Positions 20,959 to 30,086 of a stretch of 64,000 bases of DNA are shown piece by piece. Positions within the stretch are counted from its first letter, which is position 1. The number at the start of each line of letters is the position of its first letter. Both the position numbers and the translations under genes were made by a program. A model generated the notes under the pieces. It saw only the letters and a list, made by a program, of their open reading frames with translations. It made no database searches and had not been told where the DNA came from. This DNA comes from Leptonema illini DSM 21528 (GTDB taxonomy: Bacteria > Spirochaetota > Leptospiria > Leptospirales > Leptonemataceae): positions 2,721,684-2,785,683 of the forward strand of contig NZ_JH597773.1 of NCBI RefSeq assembly GCF_000243335.1, read 5' to 3'.

Positions 20959-21804
20959 TCACAGTCGAATCACGTCGACAGCGACATGCAGGGAAGGACG
21001 TCCTCCGCCGAAGACGATTCCTCGCATCGGTGAGACGTCGGTAAAATCACGCCCGACAGCCGTTTCGATATATTCATCAGTCCGTGCCTTTCCATTCGTC
21101 GGATCAAAATCAAACCATCCCTGCCCCGGCGCATAGATCGAGCACCAGGCATGCGTTGCATCGGCGCCAAGAAGACGCTGCTGACCCGGTGCCGGACGCG
21201 TCTCGATATAACCGCTTACATAACGAGCGGGAATTCCCGCCGAGCGGCAACAGGCGATCATCAGATGGGCAAAATCCTGGCAGACACCGGCGCGAAGGCG
21301 CAGCGTCTCGGGAACCGATGTGTGAATGGAAGTCACGCCGGGTTTATACTGGAAATTCCGACGTATGTACCGGCTCATCTCAAGACAACCGGCAAGCACG
21401 CCTTCGCGAAAGAACGGACGGGCAAATCGCGCCAGTGCACGACGGACGGGAACAAGCGGCGACGGAAGCAGGAACTCGCACAACTCCGCGTCATCATAAA
21501 GCCCTTCATATTCGCCGGGGTAACTCTCGCGCCCAGCCGGCGAAACCGGCGCCGTACGAACAAGACTGCGCGAATGTATCGTCAACGATCTGTGCTCTTC
21601 CATGACGGAGAAATGATATCGTTCGTTGCCGTGGAAATCGCGCCTCATCGCAATGTCAGACGGGCGAGGAAGGATTTCCAGCTCGGATGAAAGGCAGAGC
21701 TGGCCGTTCCGGTGCGCAGGGCGGATAACGGCCACATTGTAACATCGAGCGACGGTTTCGGAATACTCATAACGCGTTCTGTGATCGATACGAAATTCAG
21801 CCAT
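20959..21804 (-). CDS. Transglutaminase-like cysteine peptidase/transferase, catalytic residues intact
   Basis: A 281-aa cytoplasmic protein with the bacterial transglutaminase N-terminal beta domain (FRIDHRTRYEYSE) and a transglutaminase core. The triad is present: C175 in GVCQDFAHLM, H218 in ATHAWCSIY and D234 in WFDFDPTNG. Such proteins are thiol enzymes that act on peptide or isopeptide bonds. I start at ATG 21804, which begins the family N-terminus and overlaps the preceding ATP-grasp/Alpha-E gene by eight bases; the frame extends further upstream but overlaps coding sequence. It is the last gene of a five-gene overlapping cluster with ATP-grasp and Alpha-E proteins, a combination predicted to make or process peptide-like amide bonds. 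Confidence 0.92.
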   Translation of the reverse strand: MAEFRIDHRTRYEYSETVARCYNVAVIRPAHRNGQLCLSSELEILPRPSDIAMRRDFHGNERYHFSVMEEHRSLTIHSRSLVRTAPVSPAGRESYPGEYEGLYDDAELCEFLLPSPLVPVRRALARFARPFFREGVLAGCLEMSRYIRRNFQYKPGVTSIHTSVPETLRLRAGVCQDFAHLMIACCRSAGIPARYVSGYIETRPAPGQQRLLGADATHAWCSIYAPGQGWFDFDPTNGKARTDEYIETAVGRDFTDVSPMRGIVFGGGRPSLHVAVDVIRL

Positions 21805-24205
21805 CGCGAAACTCCACTGACATGGGACGTTCGCCGGCAGGAAAGTAAATCGTCGCAATACGGTCGGCAAGTTGTTCGATCTGAAGCTGTAGCGTCTGCA
21901 ATGCGGCAAGCATGGTCGCCCGATCCTCCGTCGATGTCATCGGCAAACTAAGACGTTCAGCCATCTGATCAAGAGCAGAACGGGCAAGCCCGGCGGCCGG
22001 AAGGCGCAGGACGCATTCATGAATCCGCTGCAACTGCCAGATCAGCGATCGCGGGCTCCTCTCCTCAAAAAGAAGAAGCCTCAACACGGAATCCAGATCG
22101 ATGACATTACCGAACCTTCGGCGATAGGTTATACGCAGGTCGCCGGCATTCAAAACGACCGAAGGTAGAGCCTCCTCCTTTTCATAGGAAAGAAGCTGTG
22201 CACACATCGAGAGGATGTGCAGCGCTCGCTCAATCCTCGAACCGACGTCGATAAAGGTCCAGCCGTCCTCTCGCGTCATTCCCTCTCGCAGAAGCCCCGA
22301 CAGAGAGCCCAGAAGGATAATGCGATCCTGCACGAGCGAGAAAAGCGCCTCGCTGCCGCGCTGCTCGGGGTTAACGCGAAGACGGGCAATGACGGTACGA
22401 GCGTCATCCGAAAGATAGGATCGCAACGACCTACAGGTATTCAGGAAGGCCCGGTGTATCCAGGCCGGCCCCTGCTTCCACTGTCCGTCGCCCGTATAAA
22501 TCCTCTGCAGATACTCAGATGAGGGCGGATGCGCCGGCGCTTCCGTATAACGCAACAGCAGAGCGAATACCGAGACGGCCTCGTCTGAGCCGAGATCTCC
22601 ATTCTCATACTTGAGAACGGTGCGCCCGACTTCGCGAAACAGCCGGCTGGCATTCTCTGATCGCTCTGCATAACGTCCCATCCAGAAGAAGTCATCGGCG
22701 ATTCGGTTGGGAATACGATTCTCGCGCCTGATTCGAGCCTCGGGCACGCTCTCCCCGAGAAGAGTGATGGCCCGAACCGGCTCGTCCGAAAGAATCCACA
22801 GATCCTTGCTTGCAGCTCCGCTCTGATTGGTGACGGCTCGCGAACTCAGATCGCTCGAAACCCTTACAAGTCCTCCGGGCATCACGCGAAATCCCGATTC
22901 CCCTGCCGTCGTGAAAAGACGAAACAGCGATCGAGCGGGCATGATCCGTGAATCATGAAAAACCGGCGAAGTAGAGCCTGGAAGAATCCGCTGCGCCACA
23001 TATCGCTGCGGGCAGGTACGGATCTCTTGCAGAGAGAATTCTATATCCTCCGGGAATACGGGAGGGATCGTTCGGTCAGAAGACTTCACGACGTACTCAC
23101 CGGGATTGTCGAAAAAGCGAGATCTATGTGCGGCATTGCCCAGCCATAGCGTCTCGGCATTCGGCAGAATTAAATCCTCCTTGAAGAAGAACCGGCACAT
23201 GCGATTGAGATAAGGAAAAATATATCGGTCTTCAAGAACGGCTGAACCAACCGGATTCGCACAGCGTACATGCCCCGCCCGGATCGCCTCAAGAAGCCCC
23301 GGTACGCCCAGCAGCGAATCTCCGCGCAATTCCGTAGCGTCCAGATATTGATCTTCAACGCGACGCAACAGAACGTCGACTCGTTCGAGACCGTTAACCG
23401 TCCTCATGAAAAGATGCTGGTCTCTAACGATTAAATCCTCTCCCTGGACAAGCGGAAAATTCAGATACCCTGAAAGATAGGCATGCTCGAAATAAGTCTC
23501 GTTCTGCGGACCGGGCGTAAGCAGCGCAACAGATGGAGTATCGAGCGAATCACTGCGCCGACCGGGATTCTGTAAACTCGCCTTCAACGATCGAAAGTAG
23601 CCCGCCAACCGATGGACGTTGCTTTCACGATAGAGGCCGGCGAGTACCCGACTGAGAACGATGCGGTTTTCAAGCGCATATCCCGAACCTGACGGAGCCT
23701 GAATGCGGTCAGCCAGTACCTCGAAATCTCCCGCCCTGTTGCGCGCAAGATCGCTTGCAAAAAAGAAAAGCGCCGGTTCATCAGGAAAAAGCATTCCGTC
23801 GGCAGGACGCAGAAACCCGGGAGCCGAGAGGACCGCGGCGGGAGGAATCACTCCTTCTTTCAGCAGCCTTCTCTGGCCGTAAAGATCGCGCACGATGCGC
23901 TCGAAAAGCTCGGCCCTCTGTAAGAGTCCGCGCTCAAGCTTCATCCATTCATCGTTGCGCATAACGACGGGAAACAGATCAAGCTGCCAGGGACGCTCAC
24001 CGCCGCGATCGTAAATAGTATAGGTTACGTCGTTCTCGCGAAGCAGCTGCTCCGCCTGCTCTTTTCTATGTTGCAGCTCAGGCATGCCCATACTCGAAAA
24101 CGCTTCGACGATCGGCACGCTGGCCTCTCGAACATGGCCGTCCGGTAAGACGACCTCATCATACATACCGCTCACCGGGCGATACTGAAGGCGATCCACG
24201 ATCAT
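21797..24205 (-). CDS. Circularly permuted ATP-grasp/Alpha-E fusion, ATP-grasp motif degenerate
   Basis: An 802-aa fusion. Residues about 10-480 match the circularly permuted type-2 ATP-grasp protein encoded at 27307-28743 along their whole length (ENR near 179, TPGPQNETYFEHAYL, GEDLIVRDQHLFMRT). Residues about 495-800 form an Alpha-E helical domain (NRIADDFFWMGRYAERSEN). The glycine-rich nucleotide loop of the paralogue (GAGGYGM) is replaced by RTIPPVF near 379-385, EDN becomes ADR, and the NSSQGGGTKD segment becomes NQSGAASKD. Catalysis therefore looks lost; a structural or regulatory partner role is my inference. The start overlaps the upstream gene by four bases (ATGA). Confidence 0.85.
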   Translation of the reverse strand: MIVDRLQYRPVSGMYDEVVLPDGHVREASVPIVEAFSSMGMPELQHRKEQAEQLLRENDVTYTIYDRGGERPWQLDLFPVVMRNDEWMKLERGLLQRAELFERIVRDLYGQRRLLKEGVIPPAAVLSAPGFLRPADGMLFPDEPALFFFASDLARNRAGDFEVLADRIQAPSGSGYALENRIVLSRVLAGLYRESNVHRLAGYFRSLKASLQNPGRRSDSLDTPSVALLTPGPQNETYFEHAYLSGYLNFPLVQGEDLIVRDQHLFMRTVNGLERVDVLLRRVEDQYLDATELRGDSLLGVPGLLEAIRAGHVRCANPVGSAVLEDRYIFPYLNRMCRFFFKEDLILPNAETLWLGNAAHRSRFFDNPGEYVVKSSDRTIPPVFPEDIEFSLQEIRTCPQRYVAQRILPGSTSPVFHDSRIMPARSLFRLFTTAGESGFRVMPGGLVRVSSDLSSRAVTNQSGAASKDLWILSDEPVRAITLLGESVPEARIRRENRIPNRIADDFFWMGRYAERSENASRLFREVGRTVLKYENGDLGSDEAVSVFALLLRYTEAPAHPPSSEYLQRIYTGDGQWKQGPAWIHRAFLNTCRSLRSYLSDDARTVIARLRVNPEQRGSEALFSLVQDRIILLGSLSGLLREGMTREDGWTFIDVGSRIERALHILSMCAQLLSYEKEEALPSVVLNAGDLRITYRRRFGNVIDLDSVLRLLLFEERSPRSLIWQLQRIHECVLRLPAAGLARSALDQMAERLSLPMTSTEDRATMLAALQTLQLQIEQLADRIATIYFPAGERPMSVEFRDG

Positions 24206-26379
24206 ACATCCCGCCGCAGATCAAGCGTCGTCGGATAACGCAAGTCGATACGCTCGCTATATCCGTGCAGCTGGACGGAATGCACGCCGGCGCTGAAGCG
24301 GCCGGAATCCAGACGACAACCCGAAACGACTCTGCGGTTCCACAGGTCGTAGATATCGAAGTGCAGCGCAGAGGCACGGTCGTAGCGAACGCCCGCAACG
24401 GCATGACCGCGCTCCTCTACCGAAATCAACGGAACGCGAAGGGAGTTACAGAGAAGAACGTACCGATTCTCCCTTAAGGCCTGCACTCTGACCTCAAGGC
24501 GTCCCGAATTCGCCGAATGCAGGCACGGCTCCAACGCTTCGCGAAAAGATAGAGTCATTTCTTCGAACACCATCTCGCCTAACATCGGATACCTTCGATC
24601 AATAAGTGACGAGAACATTCCGGCATTCAGGCTGATTCCGAGTCGACTTAGCGTTTCCAGAATATCTTTCAGGTCCTGAGATGCAAAAAAAGGTAAAAGC
24701 GATCGATCATAGAGATCATCAGAGGATTGAAACCCATCCGATTCTTCATTCAGAAGAAGAATCAATACGGCGAGCATCAACAATCGCTGTAGTTGTGCCT
24801 CAACAGGCGTAAGGGCCGCACAGAGATCCTGCTCGATATACCCCGCATCGCCTGCCCCGAAAAGCCGATCAAGACGGACCCAGCCGGCGTTCAAAGCCGG
24901 TAAAAATTCACCGTAAAGAGCTTCAAGCGAGGCGGCCTCCGCTCTCTTCGCCCTCGCCGTCAGAATGACTAACTCCTGAATCCACAGAGGATGCAGCTCT
25001 CCAGGAAGAAACGAGGCCGATGTCGGGCCTGGACGATCCGCTCTCAAAAGATAAGACAGCGCAGGACGACTCTGCCAGAACCCGATCCATAAGGCGAGCA
25101 GATCCCTCTTCTGTAGAAACGGACTTTCTTCGCGAGTCGCAGAACCGATACGCAGACGATGCGGCCCGGGCATCGGAGCCAGTCCTTCCCGCTCTAAGAG
25201 CGAAAAGAGAGCGGCGGTTTTTTTCGCCGCATCGGAAAGCCCGAGGAAAAATGGCGTAGCTATTTCAAGCCGACCCTCGCTCTCGATAATGCCGAACCCT
25301 TTCTCTTCAATTGAATCGGAAGTGGAACCGGAAGAGTGCACAAACATACGCCGCTCCTCCTGTCGGACTTCTCCTTCAGGCAAGAAGAAATCCCGGATCA
25401 TCGTCGCTATTCGATTCACGTCTCCAGCAGCAAAAGAAAAAGTCGATGCCGTCTGGATACGAAAGCCGGATCGACGAAGGCGGCGTTCAAGGTCCTCGGT
25501 CACCTGGTCAAGAGTTCGATCGATCTCACGCCCGCCTTCTGCGGCGCTTCCTTGCAAACGTTTCAGCTCATAATATTCGCTGAAGTCTGCGCTATCCAGA
25601 AGTTCCTTCTCAAACGGCAACGCCTCTTCTGGATGCAGGCAGCTGGACAGAGCAACGTAAGAATCGCCCGTCCAGCGATTGAGGGCAGGATCAAGGCCTA
25701 ACCAACCCGCCTCGGGATGAAAGATATCAATCCAGGCCCGAAGCTCAGCCTTCGAATTATCGGTATCGAAACAATAACCGGAAACGAAGCGACACGGAAG
25801 ACCGCACTTACGCAGCATGGCCAGTACAAGCTGAGCAATCTCTGAAGCCGATGCCTTTCCATCAGCGGCGATCTCTGCAAGATTTCGTATGCCGGGCCGC
25901 AACGGCAAAAATAACCGCATGCGCTCGCGCAAAAGTTGCGCACATTCACGCGGGAATTCAGGGTCAACGCACGGAAGCGAGATATCGTCCATCCATTCGG
26001 CGATCAGATCGGGTAACGCCTCTCCTATGACGGCAGATCCGAGTAATGGATCGGTCTTTTTTATCGTCCGGAACGCCCGCCTGCTCGCATCAAAGTCCTT
26101 AAATGGATCGACGTCCTCCACCCCTGCCACATCAAGAAGCAGGTCTACGGTTAACTGAAGTTCGGGCATCTCCTGTGCAAAATCGACACGAAGAATCGGA
26201 TTCCCCTCGGCATCCGTATGTCTGTGCAGTCTGGACGGGGCCGGCTTTATATCGATGGCCTGCGAAAGGATGTTACGACTTGTAGCAAGCGGCAGGAGCC
26301 TGAATGTGGCTCCCGGAACATCGTGAATCCGATCGAAACGAAAAAAGACACGGTGCGTGAAGGCGTAGCGAATTCCCAT
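24202..26379 (-). CDS. Transglutaminase-like/DUF2126 protein, apparently catalytically dead and shortened
   Basis: A 725-aa relative of the large (about 1100 aa) transglutaminase-DUF2126 proteins. The N-terminal 260 residues align with the transglutaminase fold (RFVSGYCFD, EAGWLGLDPALN), but the catalytic cysteine position is A178 (GKASASEIAQ) and the histidine position R214 (ELRAWIDIF); only D230 remains. From about 400 on, DUF2126 landmarks are visible: ESPFLQKRDLLALWIGFWQS, ALSYLL, PGPTS, and near the end QDLKDILETLSRLG, REALEP and AVAGVRYDRAS. From memory of the family, its EVNIHP and GTGGGNH segments are absent. It starts one base after the Alpha-E gene and overlaps the next gene by four bases. 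Confidence 0.8.
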   Translation of the reverse strand: MGIRYAFTHRVFFRFDRIHDVPGATFRLLPLATSRNILSQAIDIKPAPSRLHRHTDAEGNPILRVDFAQEMPELQLTVDLLLDVAGVEDVDPFKDFDASRRAFRTIKKTDPLLGSAVIGEALPDLIAEWMDDISLPCVDPEFPRECAQLLRERMRLFLPLRPGIRNLAEIAADGKASASEIAQLVLAMLRKCGLPCRFVSGYCFDTDNSKAELRAWIDIFHPEAGWLGLDPALNRWTGDSYVALSSCLHPEEALPFEKELLDSADFSEYYELKRLQGSAAEGGREIDRTLDQVTEDLERRLRRSGFRIQTASTFSFAAGDVNRIATMIRDFFLPEGEVRQEERRMFVHSSGSTSDSIEEKGFGIIESEGRLEIATPFFLGLSDAAKKTAALFSLLEREGLAPMPGPHRLRIGSATREESPFLQKRDLLALWIGFWQSRPALSYLLRADRPGPTSASFLPGELHPLWIQELVILTARAKRAEAASLEALYGEFLPALNAGWVRLDRLFGAGDAGYIEQDLCAALTPVEAQLQRLLMLAVLILLLNEESDGFQSSDDLYDRSLLPFFASQDLKDILETLSRLGISLNAGMFSSLIDRRYPMLGEMVFEEMTLSFREALEPCLHSANSGRLEVRVQALRENRYVLLCNSLRVPLISVEERGHAVAGVRYDRASALHFDIYDLWNRRVVSGCRLDSGRFSAGVHSVQLHGYSERIDLRYPTTLDLRRDV

Positions 26380-26380
26380 G

Positions 26381-27313
26381 TCACTGATTCCGAAAAAAAC
26401 GCTCTTCGATCGACAGACCCAGTCGATTCAGGCGAATCTGGATTTCATCAAGGTACTCATGCATTCCCGTCTGCAGTATCTCCTCCATTCGAGCATGATC
26501 GAGATCAGAAAGAAACTGCCTGACCATCGCCGTCGGCGTCGATGCATCTTCACCAACCCACGGCAGAGTGTCGCGTATCTCCTGAACGCAATGTCGCACG
26601 GAACGCGGAAAGTTGCGGTCGAAGAGCAAGAATTGTACGACGAAGCCGGGAGATACTTTAGAGAAAGAACGGTTAAACATCTCATGCGCGCTGGCAGATC
26701 GGAGCACCCACATCCATTGCACAAGATCGAGCGAGCTCCCCACATCGGCCGGGCCCGGCAAAAGAATGAAGTATTTCATATCAAGGATACGCGTCGTCTT
26801 GTCGGCTCGCTCAATATAGCGACCGAGCATGGTAAAATGCCATACCTCGTCGTGAGAAAGCGTCGCATCGGCCGTTCCGTAAAAAAGCAGGCAGGATTTC
26901 CGCACCTCTCGAAGAATTTCGACGAAGGCATCCATCGCATGCTCCGAAGGCAACTCAATTTCTCGCAGAGAAAGATAGAATTCGTTCAACACCTCCCACA
27001 TATCGGTGGAAATATCTTCGCGAATCGTGCGGGCGTTCTCGCGTGCCCGGGCGACGCAAGACACGACGGAATTCGGGTTCTCACGATCGAAGACGAGAAA
27101 GCGAAGAACGTCCGCACGCTCTTTAGACGGATAACGAGAGGCGAAGGCGGCGGCGTCACCCGTCGTCTCGACGAGCGGAAACCACTGCCGCAGAAGCGGA
27201 TCTTCGACATCTAACCCTTCCTGAAAATTCACGTCGATAAAGCGGGCATAGTTCTCAGCCCGCTCTATATAGCGACTCATCCAGTAAACGTTCTCGGCTA
27301 CGCGACTCAGCAT
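26381..27313 (-). CDS. Alpha-E domain protein
   Basis: A 310-aa stand-alone Alpha-E (DUF403) protein. The family opening is clear (MLSRVAENVYWMSRYIERAEN), followed by the second conserved block (HFTMLGRYIERADKTTRILD) and the ADVGSSLDLVQW segment. Alpha-E domains are helical, of unknown biochemical role, and are nearly always encoded beside circularly permuted ATP-grasp proteins and transglutaminases, as here. ATG 27313 was chosen because GGAG lies nine bases upstream and it begins the family N-terminus; it overlaps the preceding ATP-grasp gene by seven bases. A second Alpha-E domain is fused to the degenerate ATP-grasp protein downstream. Confidence 0.93.
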   Translation of the reverse strand: MLSRVAENVYWMSRYIERAENYARFIDVNFQEGLDVEDPLLRQWFPLVETTGDAAAFASRYPSKERADVLRFLVFDRENPNSVVSCVARARENARTIREDISTDMWEVLNEFYLSLREIELPSEHAMDAFVEILREVRKSCLLFYGTADATLSHDEVWHFTMLGRYIERADKTTRILDMKYFILLPGPADVGSSLDLVQWMWVLRSASAHEMFNRSFSKVSPGFVVQFLLFDRNFPRSVRHCVQEIRDTLPWVGEDASTPTAMVRQFLSDLDHARMEEILQTGMHEYLDEIQIRLNRLGLSIEERFFRNQ

Positions 27314-28743
27314 GCCACGTCTCCGGAAATCACCCATGTGTCCTTCGTTCCGCCGCCCTGCGACGAATTCACGACAAGCGATCCCCGGCGTAACGCGACC
27401 CGGGTCAGTCCGCCCGGCATCACATAGATATCGTCGCCATAGAGAATATAGGGACGGAAGTCCACATGCCTTCCCTCAAGCCCGCCATCGACAAGCGTCG
27501 GAATGCGCGAAAGCGCGAGTACCGGCTGAGCGATATAATGCTTCGGATCGTTTTTCACTTTCTCTTTAAAATCTGCGATTTCATCAGCGCCGGCCTGCGG
27601 TCCGATGAGCATGCCGTATCCGCCCGCTCCGTCCGTCGTCTTCACGACAAGCTCAGAGATATGGTCGAGTACGTAAGCAAGGTCCTTATTCCTGTAGCAC
27701 AGATAAGTCGGAACGTTCGCCAGTATCGGCTCTTCGTTAAGATAGTAGCGAATGATGTCGGGCACAAAGGCGTAGATAGCCTTATCGTCGGCCACACCGG
27801 CGCCAGGTGCGTTCGCCAGGGTTATGCGTCCCTTTTTCCAGAGCTCAAAGATGCCTTTTACGCCAAGTATGGAATCGGGACGGAACGCTTCGGGATCAAG
27901 GAAGCGGTCATCGATACGACGGTAGATCACGTCAATGGGCTTGAGTCCCTTCGTCGTCTTCATGAAAAGACGATCATCGCGCACAACTAAATCGGGGCCT
28001 TCGACGAGCGAAATGCCCATCTTACGGGCCAGAAACGAATGCTCGTAGTAGGCGGAGTTAAAAGGCCCGGGCGTCATGACGGCCATGCCGGCATCAGACA
28101 TCGTCGAAAACGAGGCCAGCATGTTCCGCAGTCGCTGCGGATAATCGAGAATCGGGCGGATGCTCAGTCGATCACTCAGTTCGGGTAACGTCCGCTGCAA
28201 TATCTCGCGGTTCTCAAGCACATAAGAGACGCCCGACGGACAGCGCAGGTTATCCTCAAGCACTCGAAAGACGCCCTCGCCGTCTCGCACGAGGTCGACG
28301 CCGGTGATATGTACCCAGACGCCTCTGGGCGGCACAACGCCCTCGCACTGCGGCAGATAACCGCTGCTCGAATAGACGGCCTCTTCGGGGACGACTCCGT
28401 CTTTCAGAATCTTTTTCTCATTATAGATGTCGGTAATGAAAAGGTTGAGCGCCATAATACGCTGCTTCAATCCCCGCTCGATACTGCTCCATTCGTCGGA
28501 ACGAATGATTCGCGGAATGATGTCGAAGGGGATGATGCGCTCCTGATCGGCCGGGTCGCCATACACCTGAAAGGTAATGCCGCGGTTAAAGTAGCTTCGC
28601 TCGGCCGTGCTCTTGCGGCGACGCAGCTCCTCGGTGCTCAAGAAATCCATCTTTTCTTTAAAAAGACGGTAGGAGGGCCGTATCTGGCCCGACTCCAGAA
28701 ACATCTCGTCATAGAAGGATTCGGTTTTGTATTCGGTTAGCAT
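27307..28743 (-). CDS. Circularly permuted type-2 ATP-grasp protein, motifs intact
   Basis: A 478-aa member of the circularly permuted ATP-grasp family that accompanies Alpha-E and transglutaminase genes. Motifs visible include VLEDNLRCPSGVSYVLENR (162-179), MTPGPFNSAYYEHSFLA, the glycine-rich DGAGGYGM loop (371-378), HVDFRPYI, MPGGLTRVA and NSSQGGGTKDTWV. The family is predicted to form amide or peptide bonds with ATP; the substrate is unknown. ATG 28743 has GAGG shortly upstream and begins the conserved N-terminus; a longer frame to 28788 adds 15 unconserved residues. First gene of the five-gene overlapping cluster; a 119-base gap separates it from the M24 peptidase gene. Confidence 0.93.
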   Translation of the reverse strand: MLTEYKTESFYDEMFLESGQIRPSYRLFKEKMDFLSTEELRRRKSTAERSYFNRGITFQVYGDPADQERIIPFDIIPRIIRSDEWSSIERGLKQRIMALNLFITDIYNEKKILKDGVVPEEAVYSSSGYLPQCEGVVPPRGVWVHITGVDLVRDGEGVFRVLEDNLRCPSGVSYVLENREILQRTLPELSDRLSIRPILDYPQRLRNMLASFSTMSDAGMAVMTPGPFNSAYYEHSFLARKMGISLVEGPDLVVRDDRLFMKTTKGLKPIDVIYRRIDDRFLDPEAFRPDSILGVKGIFELWKKGRITLANAPGAGVADDKAIYAFVPDIIRYYLNEEPILANVPTYLCYRNKDLAYVLDHISELVVKTTDGAGGYGMLIGPQAGADEIADFKEKVKNDPKHYIAQPVLALSRIPTLVDGGLEGRHVDFRPYILYGDDIYVMPGGLTRVALRRGSLVVNSSQGGGTKDTWVISGDVAC

Positions 28744-28862
28744 GGCGCACCTCTGCCTCGAATACAGAGCAAAAGTGGTGCCAGGCAAATCTGCACAATC
28801 TGTCAGCAGAAGGCAGTTATCCGCCGAAACCGGACACGCAGGCGAAGCACCTTGCCCTTTTT

Positions 28863-29582
28863 TCAGGCAGATGCCGGCCCATCGACGAAGAGCTGCTCGA
28901 AAAAGGACCCCATCTGGCGCTCTTCGTCCACAAAGTGCATCTCGAGAATCCAGAACCGATGTTTACCGTTACGCATCGATCGAAGCGGATGCGGGTTCTC
29001 AGCACAGATGTACTGCACATCGTCCGACCCGTGCCACTTCACATGCGGAAAGGCGTCAACGAGATGCCCGGCGATGCGATTCCCGAACTGCCAGCCCGAC
29101 TGTCGGGCGAGTTCGCAGGCTAAGGCAAAAAGCTCTGCTCCGGTTATCAGCGGATTTGCTCGAAAGGCCTCGGCGCAGCGATGCCAGGCCTGCTCGGTGT
29201 CGCTCTTTAGCCGGTGCTTTCGCTCATCGCCGCCGAAGACGTAGGTGCGACCCACATCGGCCTCGAATTCGATTTCGCCCTCAGCGGTGCGCTCGGCAAA
29301 AACGGGGCCCAGATCTATCCATGCGATGTCATCCTCCTGGATAACTCGATCGGGAGGGTTATGATCGTAGGGCAGGACGGAGTTCGGCCCGCTGCGAACG
29401 ATGCGCTTATGCCAGTAGCGCTGCACGCCCATCTCTGTTCGGGCCAGATCAAAGATGGCCTGCGTCGCCTGCTCTTCGGTCTGGCCCGGTTTAAGAATCT
29501 GCCTTTGCTCTATCAAATCGAACAGCCTGATCGCATTCTGTTCCGCTGCGATCAGGCCATGTAGAGTATCAGAAGACGGCAC
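28863..29582 (-). CDS. M24-family metallopeptidase (aminopeptidase P/methionine aminopeptidase fold)
   Basis: A 239-aa pita-bread-fold metallopeptidase. The five metal ligands can be placed: D in AWIDLGPVF, D in FEADVGRTY, H in the AGHLVDAFPHVKWHG region, E in ILEMHFVDEE and E near SFFEQLFV. M24 enzymes remove N-terminal residues or dipeptides, or are non-peptidase relatives; it lacks the N-terminal domain of prolidases. The start is GTG 29582, six bases after the Hsp20 stop, so the two are very likely co-transcribed. The downstream ATP-grasp cluster on the same strand may be part of the same transcript. Confidence 0.85.
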   Translation of the reverse strand: MPSSDTLHGLIAAEQNAIRLFDLIEQRQILKPGQTEEQATQAIFDLARTEMGVQRYWHKRIVRSGPNSVLPYDHNPPDRVIQEDDIAWIDLGPVFAERTAEGEIEFEADVGRTYVFGGDERKHRLKSDTEQAWHRCAEAFRANPLITGAELFALACELARQSGWQFGNRIAGHLVDAFPHVKWHGSDDVQYICAENPHPLRSMRNGKHRFWILEMHFVDEERQMGSFFEQLFVDGPASA

Positions 29583-29588
29583 AGGATT

Positions 29589-30086
29589 TCAGGCCTGCTT
29601 CACATCGACCTTCTTCGAAGGCTTCGTAGCGTCGGCCTTCTTCGGAAGCTGAACGGTGAGTATACCGTTTTTGAACGTCGCCTCGACCTTCGAAAAATCC
29701 ACGGAGTCGGGCAGAGCAATCACACGCTTGAAGGCGCCATAGGCGCTTTCCATAAGATGGACGTCCTCTTTATCGCTCTTCTTCTCGAACTTCTTCTCGC
29801 CCTCGATGGTCAGGCGATCGTCGGCAACGGAAACCTCCACGTCTTTTGCCTCAAGGCCCGGAAGCTCGGCCTTCACGATAATCTGTTTTTCATCCTCTGA
29901 GACGTTTACGGCAGGCATGAACTTACGCATAAAGGTCTCGGCCTCGCCAAGGCCGCTCTGCATGCGCCCCATCAGCGGAGAAAAGAGTCGGTCCATCTCA
30001 CGCTGCATGTTGTTAAAGTACTGCTCCATATCGCGTCGCATCAACTCAGAGCGGTCCTTCGCCCATTCGGGAATCAAATCCTTCAT
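29589..30086 (-). CDS. Hsp20/alpha-crystallin small heat-shock protein
   Basis: A 165-aa small chaperone that holds unfolding proteins. A methionine-rich helical N-terminal arm (QYFNNMQREMDRLFSPLMGRM) precedes the alpha-crystallin domain (PAVNVSEDEKQIIVKAELPG to FKNGILTVQLPK), including the conserved ELPG and A-x-F-K-N-G-I-L-T motif. The C-terminal extension is lysine-rich and lacks a clear I-x-I motif. ATG 30086 has a strong GGGAGG site. It is six bases upstream of the M24 peptidase gene. Confidence 0.95.
   Translation of the reverse strand: MKDLIPEWAKDRSELMRRDMEQYFNNMQREMDRLFSPLMGRMQSGLGEAETFMRKFMPAVNVSEDEKQIIVKAELPGLEAKDVEVSVADDRLTIEGEKKFEKKSDKEDVHLMESAYGAFKRVIALPDSVDFSKVEATFKNGILTVQLPKKADATKPSKKVDVKQA

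Follow-up and report, generated by a model that had tools for sequence, protein, structure and literature searches.

Operons in which ATP-grasp and Alpha-E proteins are encoded together with a transglutaminase-DUF2126 fusion have been described as a system for peptide synthesis or modification, an assignment attributed to Iyer et al. 2009 in the passages of two later papers that cite it (PMC5666114, PMC6376114), and experimental confirmation of their physiological role is described as lacking (PMC6376114; see also PMC5666114). Transglutaminase folds devoid of catalysis are also already known, both in bacteria and in eukaryotes. In Pseudomonas aeruginosa, RloB is an inactive transglutaminase transmembrane protein whose gene shares an operon with that of an ATP-grasp protein, and mutations in RloB have phenotypes (PMC12239564), while the eukaryotic EPB42 and FBXO21 are listed as inactive transglutaminase-fold proteins (PMC10318531). 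Among the papers searched, none of which contains the term DUF2126, so that absence means little, we found no description of a transglutaminase-DUF2126 protein that is dead in both of its halves. Here we describe a gene of Leptonema illini DSM 21528 whose product appears to be such a protein, and weigh what may have kept it in place.

The gene lies on the minus strand of the window, by which we mean the whole stretch of 64,000 nucleotides that was analysed. It belongs to an operon of five genes, the relevant features of which are given below; the codon coordinates were reckoned from the start at 26379, such that residue n occupies 26379-3n+1 to 26379-3n+3, and the percentages refer to residues invariant among 12 relatives.

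27307-28788, minus strand: circularly permuted ATP-grasp, operon partner (Pfam PF14403, 536 bits; 92% of invariant residues kept)
26381-27337, minus strand: Alpha-E protein, operon partner (Pfam PF04168, 324 bits; 96% kept)
24202-26379, minus strand: predicted double pseudoenzyme of 725 aa, comprising a transglutaminase N-domain, a dead transglutaminase core and an eroded DUF2126 part
26140-26367, minus strand: Bact_transglu_N, residues 5-80 (Pfam PF08379, 31 bits)
25687-25896, minus strand: Transglut_core, residues 162-231 (Pfam PF01841, 43 bits)
25846-25848, minus strand: codon of Ala178 (GCN, possibly GCT) at the catalytic Cys position
25738-25740, minus strand: codon of Arg214 at the catalytic His position
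25690-25692, minus strand: codon of Asp230, the Asp of the triad, kept
24790-25557, minus strand: eroded amidoligase part, residues 275-530, with motifs replaced and about 300 residues deleted (from alignments)
24205-24792, minus strand: C-terminal DUF2126 module, residues 530-725, the best-kept region, with 19 of 24 near-invariant residues (Pfam and alignments)
21797-24205, minus strand: ATP-grasp-Alpha-E fusion, whose start overlaps the stop of the pseudoenzyme gene by 4 bp (ATGA) (87% kept)
20959-21909, minus strand: second transglutaminase, its Cys, His and Asp all in place, the active neighbour of the preliminary description (96% kept)

The open reading frame begins with ATG and runs without interruption to its stop. 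Its product is recognized by the Pfam profiles for Bact_transglu_N, for Transglut_core (cut-off 23 bits), and for DUF2126 (PF09899; 112 bits against a cut-off of 27), the best stretch of the last covering only profile positions 581-769 of 826. The operon order, namely ATP-grasp, Alpha-E, the position of the pseudoenzyme, ATP-grasp-Alpha-E and transglutaminase, is the same in six fetched loci (L032, L034, L035, L036, L042 and L048), and the other fetched loci hold the same gene set with the first two genes rearranged. Relatives from the same family, order and class carry at the place of the pseudoenzyme a transglutaminase-DUF2126 fusion, mostly of 1,067-1,280 aa. Domain order, neighbours and a place in the operon next to the ATP-grasp-Alpha-E gene mark the gene as orthologous to the widespread fusion of transglutaminase and DUF2126 amidoligase found in ATP-grasp/Alpha-E operons, with 24-30% identity to such fusions over the aligned part; it differs from them in lacking both catalytic sites, in length (725 aa, where they have about 1,100), and in residing in a genome without an intact copy. 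To judge by these alignments the protein is a lineage-specific double pseudoenzyme that has lost about a third of its length together with its two active sites. Immediately ahead of the operon and in its orientation (28863-30086) lie genes for an M24 metallopeptidase-family protein and an Hsp20. The operon occurs here without an Anbu gene: none was found in the genome, and the sole PF00227 match, located elsewhere (C1:2370985-2371506), reads as HslV, which rules out Anbu as a part of the system in this organism.

The preliminary description of this DNA had proposed a pseudo-transglutaminase in which the catalytic Cys is replaced by Ala178 and the His by Arg214 while Asp230 is kept, and in this it was exact in coordinates and residue numbers alike. 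In 46 intact orthologues from many phyla, a sample biased towards intact proteins since it consists of the best matches to intact ones, Cys, His and Asp each occupy their triad columns in 46 of 46, and the alignment of same-class relatives and the profile alignment likewise place Ala178, Arg214 and Asp230 in these columns. The protein thus retains the Transglut_core fold of PF01841 without the Cys-His-Asp triad of the active bacterial enzymes, whereas the transglutaminase at 20959-21909 displays the triad motifs RAGVCQD, THAW and DFDPTNG. The further statement that all other core motifs are well preserved holds for RFVSGY and W(L)GLDP but not for the surroundings of the Cys, where GSCRDS has given way to ASASEI, and only 36% of the residues invariant in the 12 relatives are kept, deleted positions being counted as lost, against 87-96% in the four operon neighbours. 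The loss is confined to this one gene and to the Leptonema lineage, and there is no general decay of the operon.

What the preliminary description overlooked is the DUF2126 half: on alignment evidence the protein is what remains of a transglutaminase-amidoligase with two functions, and its putative second active site has gone as well. Some 300-370 residues have been lost; about 300 are missing from the first half of the amidoligase region, and smaller blocks are missing close to the C-terminus. The conserved DUF2126 motifs GGEPTF, QGKWYPGE, EVN, GGGNH, SQAPRxDE and GNTHRAE, which we presume from their conservation to be catalytic, are replaced or deleted: GGEPTF has become TASTFSF, TPDPGVxEVN has become ESEGRLEIAT, SQAPRIDE has become SASFLPGE, GNTHRAExxIDKL has become GWVR..LDRL and RAFEM has become CAALT, while QGKWYPGE and GDSxxGxRLPL are deleted altogether. 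Preferential loss at the presumed catalytic motifs is unconvincing, with 18 of 47 residues kept there against 54 of 96 elsewhere (P = 0.05) and no significance for the transglutaminase motifs alone. Retention is uneven along the protein, in that 79% of the near-invariant residues are kept within residues 530-725 and 45% (53 of 119) in the rest of the protein (Fisher P = 0.003 for a region chosen post hoc), and it may be this C-terminal module, rather than the transglutaminase core, that is the preserved part that matters most.

Structure modelling gave a mean pLDDT of 70 for the pseudoenzyme (47 sequences), with the C-terminal part mostly at 70-95 and the middle (about residues 257-385) at low confidence; the transglutaminase-like domain of the model matches 3isr (E = 6e-10) and TgpA. 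The same modelling applied to an intact relative reached a mean pLDDT of 82 and gave weak matches to glutamine-synthetase-like enzymes (9qur, E 0.02; 8x6z, E 0.06).

The dead form is known from one genome. In a sample of 393 genomes of Spirochaetota, 24 others carry DUF2126 at 545-1,323 bits (best stretch; one truncated contig apart), and the Leptonema genome is an outlier with 78 and 31 bits only. A search of that genome found no second DUF2126 gene, which rules out an intact copy elsewhere taking over. Close relatives of the dead form were found neither in GTDB genomes nor in viral contigs, and searches of the genus, class and phylum returned no second genome that carries it. Among other groups, six genomes, all picked for the long form, held nothing closer to the dead form, and the existence of dead forms in other phyla is compatible with searches of this extent. 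Two genomes carry a distant ATP-grasp-Alpha-E gene (33% identity) beside a transglutaminase and without a DUF2126 gene (G031, C37:67040-72648, and G028, C144), and such arrangements in some relatives are perhaps a second operon type that lacks the amidoligase. The Leptonema genome holds eight Transglut_core genes, some of them within open frames of 878 aa and 621 aa.

The rate at which the protein has evolved was assessed in LG+G4 trees of the five operon proteins with the 12 relatives. The terminal branch of the pseudoenzyme measures 4.51 substitutions per site, about eight-fold the longest among its orthologues (at most 0.53), whereas the four other operon proteins of the same genome have terminal branches of 0.43 to 1.13; constraint on the pseudoenzyme is therefore strongly relaxed. 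Neutral simulation to 0.3 substitutions per site predicts about 15 stops, and none of the simulated genes stayed open; the 725 observed codons contain 0 stops, so that fully neutral evolution of the frame is excluded. The proposal of the preliminary description, that preserved motifs argue for selection on the fold rather than decay, is no more than weakly supported, given the long branch and because missense drift with stops forbidden yields nearly the same conservation. In simulations of such drift, the products of which were realigned to the family and matched for overall conservation, hydrophobic columns were retained at 0.75 ± 0.04 at matched invariant retention, about one standard deviation below the observed 0.80; the first drift simulation had seemed to favour selection on the fold, and it was recalibration to matched conservation that shrank the support to this value. 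The kept residues are somewhat more clustered than under drift: their longest run comprises 10 residues, while none of 32 simulations exceeded 9. The codon-usage score of the gene is 0.045 against 0.12-0.16 for its neighbours, which define the reference and are hence favoured.

We consider it most likely that the remnant works as a subunit without catalysis, keeping its still conserved partners together or in position, a reading to which we give a probability of about 0.5, and which we favour for its agreement with the open frame, with the conserved place in the operon and with the uneven retention. The ancestral transglutaminase-amidoligase would have lost both active sites and the 300-370 residues in the Leptonema lineage; the remaining protein would still be made and folded, and would act as a scaffold for the ATP-grasp-Alpha-E fusion and the second transglutaminase, with residues 530-725 as the probable contact surface. 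The retention of that module is the best sign of a retained role, with the qualification that the region was selected post hoc. The frame of the gene has remained open although about half or more of the residues have been replaced. Long-term maintenance of the dead form is unproven, because no second genome carries it.

The most serious rival is that the protein itself is functionless and the gene is a translation-coupled relic, read through by ribosomes for the benefit of the downstream ATP-grasp-Alpha-E and transglutaminase genes, with stops and frameshifts being selected against while missense changes drift. An open frame is not proof of protein function, because the 4-bp ATGA overlap with the next gene could by itself keep the gene readable, and the eight-fold branch, the low codon-usage score, the single known genome and the ease with which stop-free drift reproduces most of the residue retention all sit well with this account, which we hold to be possible, if somewhat doubtful. 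It explains nearly everything except the uneven retention, in which residues 530-725 stand apart, and the modest clustering of kept residues also speaks against it; moreover, a shorter spacer arising through in-frame deletion would have served the coupling equally well.

A far less probable alternative is that the protein has acquired new chemistry, as a neofunctionalized enzyme that uses a different nucleophile or a Cys-His pair that has been displaced. New Cys residues at 192, 196, 203 and 247 and a new His221 do lie in or near the transglutaminase core in the profile alignment, and the fast evolution would be compatible with a change of function. However, none of them falls in a triad column of that alignment, and no candidate for a displaced pair emerges from their sequence positions; they stand where strands or helices end, in place of hydrophobic or small residues, GSCRDS has disappeared as a whole, and the motifs of the amidoligase have been deleted rather than turned into another coherent motif, all of which makes this explanation very unlikely. 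That a normal gene was recently damaged or misassembled, as its restriction to one genome might suggest, is scarcely credible, since neither sequencing error nor recent damage yields hundreds of substitutions and several deletions that are all in frame, without a single stop and between normal neighbours.

The non-catalytic subunit that we favour would have a parallel in RloB, likewise a catalytically dead transglutaminase fold encoded beside an ATP-grasp protein; this likeness is one of description, and RloB differs in being fused to seven transmembrane helices and in occurring with an aspartic protease, whereas the Leptonema protein has an eroded DUF2126 as its fusion partner and an operon with Alpha-E and circularly permuted ATP-grasps. 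EPB42 and FBXO21 share with it a transglutaminase fold that has a structural or recruiting role in place of catalysis, but they are eukaryotic, contain a single dead domain and belong to an unrelated context. What would set the Leptonema case apart is that a bifunctional enzyme was converted whole, its two sites together, to a structural part of a peptide-ligase complex, a proposition that we advance only tentatively. If it is true, the transglutaminase-amidoligase has a body that the ATP-grasp/Alpha-E/transglutaminase system requires independently of the two chemistries. These operons are widespread, and a locus in which one component is devoid of both chemistries while the other four are conserved separates the need for the body from the need for the enzyme. 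The same locus further suggests that a function can be served by the ATP-grasps and transglutaminase that remain, without the amide-bond chemistry of DUF2126.
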